Below the pieces are notes generated by a model. That model did not search any database, was not told the origin of the DNA, and saw only the letters and a program-made list of their open reading frames with translations. This document shows positions 27,301 to 62,501 of a stretch of DNA of 62,501 nucleotides, piece by piece (the first letter of the stretch is position 1; every line of letters starts with the position of its first letter). The position numbers were made by a program, and so were the translations under genes. This stretch comes from Salinisphaera japonica YTM-1 (GTDB taxonomy: Bacteria; Pseudomonadota; Gammaproteobacteria; Nevskiales; Salinisphaeraceae), in contig NZ_AYKG01000011.1 of assembly GCF_003788585.1 (NCBI RefSeq), forward strand, positions 1 through 62,501, in the 5' to 3' direction.

Positions 27301-27601
27301 TAGGGCCTGTTGTCGTTTCATGCGAGCGCCGCTTTCGCCCAGAGGCTGCGGTGTGTCCTGCAAGGCGCGAGTAGAAGCGTCGTGGCGTGCCACGATCAAG
27401 GCTTGCCAGCGCCACGGCGCCCATCTTCGATTTTTTATGGGCGTGCTAACCCGAAAGGACAAGCGCTGTCTTACCGCAATACATCGTTCTAGCCCACTGC
27501 GCGACGACGACTGCGCGGCGTGCGCTACGCCTCGTCTTGCCGCCCATAGTCACAATATGGAGCGCTTGACGCGGGCTCGTATGAAACGGCAACAGGCCCT
27601 A
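27301..27601 (-). repeat. Dispersed ~300-bp inverted-terminus repeat, copy 1
   Basis: A 301-bp element with about 27-bp terminal inverted repeats: left end TAGGGCCTGTTGTCGTTTCA, right end complementary with two mismatches. TA stands at both outer edges, as expected of a TA target duplication. Inside is the conserved palindrome CGTGGCGTGCCACG. Orientation is opposite to copies 3 and 4. Open frames inside (for example 27320-27616) are by-products of the repeat, not genes. No transposase is present, so it fits a MITE moved by an enzyme elsewhere. Confidence 0.85.
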
Positions 27602-35913: not shown

Positions 35914-35920
35914 AGAAGCC

Positions 35921-36031
35921 GACGGGATCAGGTCTTGCATTGCCACATTCGTGAAGTGTGGCGATCAAGACTCAGCCAACGGGGTCAGGTCTTGCATTGC
36001 CACATTTTTGAGATGTGACGACTAAGACTCG
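35921..36031 (+). repeat. Two tandem REP-like hairpin units
   Basis: Two 53-bp units at 35921-35973 and 35979-36031 share GTCAGGTCTTGCATTGCCAC (ATCAGG in the first). Each folds on itself: outer arms GTCTTG.../...AAGACT and inner arms CCACA/TGTGG in unit 1, CACAT/ATGTG in unit 2. A third, less complete unit is at 36157-36201. Such palindromic units beside a REP-associated transposase are its usual substrates. Confidence 0.75.
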
Positions 36032-40205: not shown

Positions 40206-40518
40206 TAGGGCCCGTTGCCGTGTCATACGAGCGCCGCTTTCGCCCCGAGTCCGCAGTGTGGCTTGCAAGGGGCGAGTCGCGGCGTCGTGGCGTGCCACGA
40301 TCAAGGCTTGTAAAGGCGCAGGGCGCCCATCTCGAATCTTTTATCGGCGGCCCAACCCTTCGAGACAAGCGCCCGGGAATTAATTACACGTCGGCAATGC
40401 AGTGTTCTAGCCCACTTGCGCAGAATGACGCGCCAAGTGCGCTACGCCTCATATTGCCGCCCATAGTCACAATATGGAGCGCTTGGCGCGGATTCTTCTG
40501 AAACGGCAACAGGCCCTG
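40206..40518 (-). repeat. Dispersed ~300-bp inverted-terminus repeat, copy 2
   Basis: A 313-bp copy: left end TAGGGCCCGTTGCCGTGTCA, right end GGCAACAGGCCCTG. The left edge has TA; on the right the A is changed to G. It contains the same inner palindrome CGTGGCGTGCCACG and shares orientation with copy 1. It lies 37 bases past the lipoprotein stop. Confidence 0.85.
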
Positions 40519-45542: not shown

Positions 45543-45841
45543 TAGGGCGTATTGAGGTTTCATACGAGTCCGCGCCAAGCGCTGTTTTACGGCAAGACGA
45601 GGCGTAGCCGACGCCGCGCAGTCATTCTGCGCCAGTGGGCTAGAACGCTGTATTGCCGATGTGTCGTTAATTTTAGGGCGCTTGTCCCGAAGGGTTGGGC
45701 CGCCCATAAAAAATCGAAGATGGGCGTCCTTCGGCGTTGCGAGTCTTGATCGTGGCACGCCACGACGCGGCGACTCGCGCCTTGCAGGACACGATTTGCG
45801 GACGCCAACGCGGCGCTCGTATGAAACCTCAACACGCCCTA
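45543..45841 (+). repeat. Dispersed ~300-bp inverted-terminus repeat, copy 3 (variant ends)
   Basis: A 299-bp copy in the opposite orientation to copies 1 and 2. Its ends read TAGGGCGTATTGAGGTTTCA and the complement of TAGGGCGTGTTGAGGTTTCA, so both termini carry the same changes relative to the other copies (GCGT for GCCT, GAGG for GCCG). TA is found at both edges. It occupies the whole space between the cytochrome operon start and the FadL-like gene's stop, so the operon promoter must be within or just outside it. Confidence 0.85.
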
Positions 45842-61921: not shown

Positions 61922-62137
61922 TTATTTCCAAGACAGATCGGGCTGGCGACCGTTCGTCATGCAGTCCCGGAGATACAGATTGATCAGGCTCTGGTAAGGA
62001 ATTCCCGTTTCCTCGGCCATGGTCTTGAAGTAGGTGATGACGTCGTCTCGCATACGAATCGTGACCTGGCGCTTGAGCTTTGCCGCATACGGATTCTTGC
62101 GGGATGTCATCGTTGAAAAATCATATTCCTCTTTCAT
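61922..62137 (-). CDS. brnA: BrnA family antitoxin
   Basis: A 71-residue BrnA antitoxin. The ribbon-helix-helix part is AAKLKRQVTIRMRDDVITYF followed by KTMAEETGIPYQSLINLYL, the family's hallmark. In intact modules BrnA binds and neutralises the ribonuclease BrnT and represses the operon. Its ATG overlaps the brnT stop by four bases. The toxin gene upstream is truncated, leaving the antitoxin orphaned. Confidence 0.9.
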   Translation of the reverse strand: MKEEYDFSTMTSRKNPYAAKLKRQVTIRMRDDVITYFKTMAEETGIPYQSLINLYLRDCMTNGRQPDLSWK

Positions 62138-62332
62138 GGCATCGGACCTTCGTAATACTGACCTTCGCGGGCCTTGGCCTTGCGGGCTGATATGAGGCGG
62201 ATGAGCTGGCCGTGTGACCGTTCGCAGTGGCAGACGATGAGTATCCGCGAACGGTCGCTCAGGCCGAGCAGGATGAAGCGATCCTCCGGTTCGGACTGTT
62301 TGTCGTCGAAGAACTGGCTGGCGTATTCGTCT
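62134..62332 (-). pseudogene. brnT: brnT toxin gene, 5' part removed by repeat copy 4
   Basis: On the minus strand this reads as the C-terminal two thirds of BrnT: EYASQFFDDKQSEPEDRFIL, then LGLSDRSRILIVCHCER and IRLISARKAKAREGQYYEG. The usual N-terminus (FEWDxxKAxxNxxKHGVxF) with its active-site residues is missing: the frame meets the terminus of repeat copy 4 exactly at 62333. The rest may lie beyond the repeat, outside the window. Brn ribonuclease activity is therefore presumably lost. Confidence 0.82.
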
Positions 62333-62501
62333 TAGGGCCTGTTGCCGTTTCATACGAGTCCGCGCCAATCGCTGTTTTGCGGCAAGACGAGGCGTAGCTC
62401 ACGCCGCGCAGTCATTCTGCGCCAGTGGGCTAGAACGCTGTATTGCCGCAAAACAGCGCTTGTCCCGAAGGGTTGGGCCGCAAATCACGCCCTGCGGCGT
62501 T
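62333..62501 (+). repeat. Dispersed ~300-bp inverted-terminus repeat, copy 4 (cut by window end)
   Basis: Left 169 bases of the element: TAGGGCCTGTTGCCGTTTCA end with the same following sequence as copy 3 (GTCCGCGCCAA, GGCAAGACGAGGCGTAGC, TTCTGCGCCAGTGGGCTAGA). Orientation as copy 3, termini as copies 1 and 2. It is inserted in brnT. Confidence 0.85.

Follow-up and report, generated by a model that had tools for sequence, protein, structure and literature searches.

Contig 11 of the Salinisphaera japonica YTM-1 genome (3.26 Mb, 69 contigs), a stretch of 62,501 bases hereafter referred to as the window, carries four copies of a family of miniature inverted-repeat transposable elements (MITEs) that insert at TA dinucleotides, are very probably moved in trans by IS5-family (IS427-like) transposases and enclose a conserved core built as a dimer of hairpins. 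Bacterial MITEs are usually regarded as remnants of insertion sequences (ISs), tied to one kind of IS. Here we report that the ends of this family recur on IS5-family elements that encode a transposase, that its interior is shared with none of the IS5 elements compared and folds into two homologous hairpins in inverted order, and that the same structured interior lies behind other ends in many genera of the class. Judged from these sequences, the conserved structured core seems to exchange or adapt its ends.

Copies in the window

The copies and their parts are listed below, together with their matches to R1, a covariance model of the left arm of the element that was built from 18 sequences from outside the window's genus.

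27301–27601, + strand: MITE copy 1, TA duplicates included; a derived form with altered arms, without a match to the hairpin model
27301–27302 and 27600–27601: TA duplicates flanking copy 1, the element proper being 27303–27599
27303–27321, + strand: left terminal inverted repeat of copy 1, GGGCCTGTTGTCGTTTCAT
27581–27599, − strand: right terminal inverted repeat of copy 1
40206–40518, + strand: MITE copy 2, with TA on the left and TG on the right; without a match to the hairpin model
45543–45841, − strand: MITE copy 3, with TA at both edges and ends of the GAGG subtype
45686–45813, − strand: hairpin unit (arm A) of copy 3; match to R1, E 1e-7
45590–45658, + strand: arm B (second hairpin unit) of copy 3, in part; R1 match on the opposite strand, E 0.011
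62333–62501, + strand: MITE copy 4, starting with TA and then GGGCCTGTTGCCGTTTCAT, and ending where the contig ends
62360–62472, + strand: complete hairpin unit of copy 4; R1 match, E 4e-12
62389–62393 and 62434–62438: loop motifs of copy 4, GAGGC (consensus AAGGC) and AACGC, respectively
62464–62501, − strand: beginning of the other, inverted unit of copy 4, the remainder lying beyond the contig end

All four copies are present where a preliminary description of this DNA had placed them, and in both orientations, copy 3 being inverted relative to the others. Its account of the edges also stands, with TA at both sides of copies 1 and 3 and TG to the right of copy 2, and, as it had said, no transposase lies inside the copies. 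The left end of copy 1 reads GTTGTCG, and that of most copies GTTGCCG.

Abundance, target site and mobility

The end pattern, with at most one mismatch, occurs 155 times in the whole genome (85 forward and 70 reverse matches), and the same pattern read backwards as a control gave 0 and 0. A blastn search of the genome with copy 1 returned at least 93 matches, 40 of which span more than 220 bases (40 of the 130 candidates scored), and family copies in this genome number roughly 80. After the removal of nine duplicate or spurious pairings, TA was found at both sides of 22 of 30 copies from this genome, none of the 30 sharing three or more flanking bases, and at both sides of 44 of 54 copies from other loci. 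The counts within the genome bear out the earlier reading of a non-autonomous MITE family with inverted ends. The base just outside the TA is mostly C or T at the left edge and mostly G or A at the right edge, which makes the target mostly YTAR and often CTAG.

Empty sites were sought by comparing the joined flanks of 11 of the genome's own copies, and of one copy from a congener, with 14 genomes of the genus. The L022 and L028 sites are empty in the congener G011 and hold exactly one TA each, in line with the TA insertion first proposed. The L004 site is also empty in G011, at equal length and with CTG replacing CTA; at the L006 site, the congeners have a stop codon and align poorly past it; and at the site of copy 3 (L026), G010 retains no more than about 30 bp of the left end. 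Copy 2 is common to G010, at the same site and with the same edges. Three of the 11 own loci are occupied in a congener (L010, L009 and L002, the latter two in G011), and L001, L013 and L030 gave no usable empty-site result. The empty, remnant and shared occupied sites across congeners thus indicate that the family is mobile and partly old. The L002 copy in G011 (L247, G011:C28:1-1000) has ends about 600 bp apart, seemingly through an insertion inside the element. Matches by blastn were found in all 13 congeners (in G007 at one end only), in one of three genomes from other genera of the same family, over 161 bases, and in none of 44 genomes from other families of the order.

By a crude G+C-based gene call, for which eight low-G+C loci and ten short-flank loci had been set aside, 64 of 66 copies are intergenic. 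The copies in the window had been described as sitting beside or inside genes; the first part of this claim agrees with the call, and the second applies to only two of the 66 calls, one of them (L004) doubtful, as this copy lies between what we take to be divergent pilT-like and yggS-like genes. As the element begins with G, an insertion into a TAG stop codon, at its TA, restores TAG, and by our reading of the locus the L006 copy terminates its upstream gene through such a restored TAG. Many of the end matches listed lie close to contig ends (for example, window positions 62333–62501), and the repeat therefore probably limits assembly. An open reading frame adjoining copy 4 (61922–62368) has a weak BrnA-antitoxin-like match, under the family cut-off, and a 57-bp unit is repeated in tandem at window positions 35917–36030 (two copies, 84% identical).

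IS5-family elements with the same ends

Iodobacter BJB302 carries an 858-bp IS, flanked by TA, with the ends of the MITEs of the same genome (identical over 18 bp). The IS is present in two copies that are identical at 854 of 858 positions, and the genome has 33 + 32 matches to the end pattern, many of which form pairs spaced as in MITEs. The transposase of the IS belongs to the IS5 family (NF033580 at 268 bits, the cut-off being 110; Pfam DUF4096 and DDE_Tnp_1), making the element a full-length, transposase-bearing relative with the same ends, of the kind that the preliminary description had envisaged. Plasmids from Aeromonas, Azotobacter, Halomonas and Raoultella also carry elements whose ends match or nearly match and which are annotated as IS5 family; the Raoultella element is annotated as ISPa67, and one Azotobacter plasmid bears both IS and MITE.

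Within the window's genus, NF033580 matches occur in nine of 14 genomes, seven of them above the cut-off, and four congeners have IS5 elements of 855–860 bp for which both ends were found. These ends are close to those of the MITE:

G003 and G007: GGGCGTGTTGCCG
G006: GGGCGTGTTGAGG and GGGTCTGTTGAGG
G001: GAGG/GATG forms

The ends of the MITEs partly track those of the resident IS. Counted by eye among roughly the first 100 matches listed per genome, IS ends included, CCG-type ends make up 0 of 100 in G001 and AGG ends about 74 of 100 in G006, and the window's genome has about 84 CCG and 14 AGG ends among 100.

The similarity does not extend inwards. When the MITE interior was compared with four IS5 elements, none of 503 high-scoring segment pairs (E ≤ 0.01) was wholly internal, that is, more than 25 bp from both ends. 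The MITE is thus no simple internal deletion of these ISs, as only the ends are common to both and nothing beyond them. According to Table 2 of one report (PMC3281130), IS427-group elements measure 832–865 bp and 10 of 11 have 2-bp duplications, that of ISPha1 being 4 bp, and another gives TA as the duplication of ISPsp10 (PMC4133298). Size and TA duplication fit a mobiliser that would be IS427-like, and mobilisation of the MITE by IS5-type transposases is well supported by these sequence comparisons.

An inverted dimer of hairpins

Facing end pairs no more than 450 bp apart number at least 58; 50 of these are at least 100 bp long, and 35 of the 50 measure 263–268 bp. A degenerate end-pattern scan is expected to yield about 60 chance matches (an estimate), and its unpaired matches serve as leads only. 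The canonical element, of about 268 bp, consists of two homologous hairpins of about 112 nucleotides (nt) in inverted order, and most of the folds shown follow a common plan of paired ends, left arm, CCC-NNN-GGG mini-hairpin and right arm. Other forms include one-arm elements (about 174–217 bp) and bare end hairpins (43–69 bp), and three Pseudomonas elements of 330–359 bp (L092, L050 and L133) have an extra insert of about 65 bp, with a hairpin of its own, in one arm.

For folding and for wobble counts, sequences at least 90% identical were removed. In the resulting fold alignment of 21 sequences, 94.2% of cells pair, and changes on both sides are seen in 59 of 88 pairs, against a shuffled mean of 32.5 and with none of 500 shuffles as high. 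The covariation score of this alignment is 0.428, compared with 0.153 when shuffled and at most 0.085 when slid. Across 58 arm matches, stem positions change freely but in concert (covariation score 0.730, compared with 0.206 shuffled and at most 0.140 slid), and an internal loop, in which AAGGC faces AACGC, is nearly invariant, with A35, G36, G37 and C38 on one side and A83, A84, C85, G86 and C87 on the other conserved at 91–100%. The covarying stems and the folds support an RNA or DNA structure in these elements, the preliminary suggestion having been that the copies may bring RNA structures.

R1 finds two of the four window copies (3 and 4); copies 1 and 2, which have altered arms, give no match. 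In 16 of 18 elements, all but the two from Iodobacter, the model also hits the entire right arm when this is read from the opposite strand (E 9e-19 to 8e-12). The two arms thus answer to one model in opposite orientations, and the element is a dimer, in inverted order, of a single unit of about 112 nt. Rfam has no match in the window at gathering score, and in eight other loci it gave three matches at E ≤ 1, all far under their gathering scores; no known RNA family was recognised at these loci.

The arms have become diverse within the genus, with four segments that each take a canonical or an alternative form; among 30 own copies seven are canonical throughout, seven are alternative throughout and 16 are mixed. 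Relative to shuffles, the window copies have weaker folds (z-scores of −5.7 to −6.2 in copies 1–3 and −4.7 in the incomplete copy 4) than the four canonical elements tested (−10 to −17).

Wobble pairs were also compared between strands, in counts whose cells are not independent. With each of 31 non-redundant arms not used for the structure read in its own direction, G·T outnumbers A·C by 39 to 10. A two-strand test gave 43 versus 23 in the mixed set of 21 sequences and 35 versus 24 without the window's genus, and it did not find a clear RNA signature on one whole strand. The asymmetry is a hint, and no more, of a single-strand function.

The same core behind different ends

At E ≤ 1e-6, R1 matches 114 of 369 genomes and 91 of 272 genera in a sample of the class, and 91 of 398 genomes in a sample of the phylum; 52 of these 91 lie outside the class, 45 of the 52 in one family. 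We examined the ends at the best R1 match of 20 class-level genomes. Inverted repeats bound all 20 of the opened loci, of which 18 are 265–275 bp long and two are 180 and 197 bp; both arms are detected in 14 of the 18 long elements, and one arm in each of the two short ones. About ten types can be told apart among the boundary sequences, and some of these resemble one another (examples of the types are GGGCCTGTTAACACT, AGAGCCTATCCGTGA, GGGAAACGCTGATTAA, GGGAACCTCTGCACGAA and one with TATACCC). Behind these different ends, 23 of 34 arms contain both loop 5-mers, compared with 12 of 10,200 shuffled arms.

Ends of the GGGCCTGTTAACACT type bound elements annotated with an IS5-family transposase on Polaromonas and Variovorax plasmids, and these transposases are 28–38% identical, in pieces, to the Iodobacter enzyme. 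Three end queries of 30–31 bases were compared with plasmids: GGGCCTGTTAACACT gave 13 records, of which three were opened, two having an IS5-family gene at the end and one lacking it; AGAGCCTATCC gave chance-level matches only; and GGGAACCTCTGCAC gave 116 records, the one opened having an IS481 gene nearby and no IS5 gene. Since GGGCCTGTTAACACT-type and Iodobacter-type ends both bound IS5 elements, the same core lies behind the ends of at least two different IS5-type elements, and the recurrence of one core behind different ends suggests that the core adapts or exchanges them.

A model for movement and its alternatives

In the model that we favour, an IS5-family transposase would recognise the ends of about 19 bp and act in trans, inserting the element at TA, mostly in the context Y-TA-R and often at CTAG. 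The two hairpins are joined by the CCC-NNN-GGG mini-hairpin, and the whole strand is thereby predicted to fold into a Y whose stem is formed by the paired ends. The hairpin may be recognised as a single strand (RNA or single-stranded DNA) by a host or element factor, and the inverted duplication would ensure that either strand shows one correctly oriented hairpin, making recognition independent of orientation. The core may have followed or swapped ends and so come to use different IS5-type transposases. In a broader form, which we hold only tentatively and which may well claim too much, these elements would be phylum-wide 'end-swapping' satellite transposons, in which an ancient core takes on resident IS5-type ends and a conserved factor reads the hairpin as a single strand, whatever its orientation.

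Several observations weigh against this model. NF033580 gave no match in the genome that contains the window, and the copies there are therefore orphans, or their partner has been lost or is unassembled; moreover, the commonest end in this genome, GGGCCTGTTGCCG, was found on none of the complete ISs in the genus, where the closest end differs by a single base. In G006, ends are CCG-type in about 18 of the 100 listed, and a CCG-type IS is hinted at in that genome only by one such end, which lies at a distance of 155 bp from a broken match to NF033580 (L204/L208). Across the end types, IS partners were found for two only, and a second arm was not detected in four of the 18 long elements opened. 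The excess of G·T over A·C falls to 19 versus 10, which is not significant, without three base pairs; on the plus strand of the whole element it appears in arm A (25 versus 7) and not in arm B (10 versus 13), and it is absent in the own copies (18 versus 16). Finally, the arms of many copies in the genus are altered and in part unpaired, and several of these forms are found more than once, at separate sites flanked by TA, indicating that perfect arm pairing is unneeded for persistence and perhaps for movement.

Among the alternatives, the core might mainly be a host-beneficial regulatory RNA (an mRNA stabiliser, a terminator or a processing site) that transposition spreads and that is retained because of what it does to nearby genes. 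The intergenic call of nearly all tested copies, the occupation of L010, L009 and L002 in a congener and the hint of a single strand in the wobble asymmetry are in keeping with such a role, as are the effects of stem-loop MITEs on transcripts reported in PMC10969869. However, G011 lacks the element at three of the 11 loci, a further site is seemingly empty in other congeners and one is a remnant in G010, so gain and loss are common, and we regard host benefit as an unlikely main reason for the conservation of the core.

Pairing of the arms could also be maintained by a mutational process, such as intrastrand template switching or inter-arm conversion, rather than by selection on the fold. Blocks do change jointly on both sides, as from GCCG/CGGC to GAGG/CCTC within one genome, and derived copies exchange whole modules. 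Yet the non-palindromic internal loop, which a pairing process would erase, is among the most conserved positions, its motif is kept in 23 of the 34 arms behind different ends, and G·T exceeds A·C in unit orientation, though mostly through three base pairs; we consider this process quite improbable as the source of the pairing.

The preliminary description had attributed the family to an IS630/mariner-like transposase. TA duplication with a CTAG preference is compatible with IS630 too, and the genome's only DDE_3/IS630 element (L040, contig C9:1-1203) sits in CTAG at the edge of a MITE copy. Its ends, GTGTCCTGTAAC by our reading, nevertheless differ from the MITE ends, GGGCCTGTTGCC, and matching or near-matching ends go with IS5-family transposases in Iodobacter, in four congeners and, by annotation, on the plasmids of four genera. 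An IS630 mobiliser is rejected on its ends within the window's own genome, to which the search was limited, and movement of the copies by an IS630/Tc1-mariner transposase is very improbable; the attribution gives way to the IS5 family. That the R1 matches in distant genera are unrelated palindromes scoring merely as hairpins is scarcely credible: although R1 E-values were calibrated on short random sequence and structure alone raises the score, 18 of the 20 loci opened measure 265–275 bp, 14 contain two inverted units, the CCC-NNN-GGG hinge is visible and the loop motif is far above shuffles.

Implications and comparison with known systems

In this family the interior outlives the ends, its structured unit being recognisable across 91 of 272 genera sampled from the class and beyond it. 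Two questions thereby become testable, namely, how an element without genes changes its transposase and what reads the conserved hairpin, and the R1 covariance model is usable for annotating unlabelled intergenic repeats. No description of the hairpin-dimer core was found in the open literature; subscription papers and ISfinder lay outside this search, and an earlier mention is possible.

The MITEs have the same or similar ends as IS427-like elements of the IS5 family, including relatives of ISPa67, and share TA duplication with them; the IS carries a transposase, whereas the MITEs have none and have the ends alone in common with it. The ERIC elements of enterobacteria are likewise intergenic MITEs (PMC10969869), and the ends of one distant relative (L279), which start with TATACCC, resemble ERIC ends. 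RU-1 is the counterpart of ERIC. At about 127 bp (PMC2759123), it is shorter than the Salinisphaera family; this comparison is one of size and ends. The TIMEs of Pseudomonas, which derive from Tn3, resemble the family in being non-autonomous, in their size (262 bp) and in the similar predicted folds among their members, but differ in having 38-bp Tn3-type ends and duplications of 5–6 bp and in being usually single copy (PMC4133298). IS-derived MITEs, as portrayed in PMC10969869, are alike in their shortness, their lack of a transposase gene, their inverted repeats and target duplication, their intergenic bias and their stem-loops. The Salinisphaera family differs from that portrayal in its conserved core unrelated to the interior of the IS, its organisation as an inverted dimer of one hairpin unit, the several kinds of ends around the core and the presence of the unit in 91 of 272 genera sampled.
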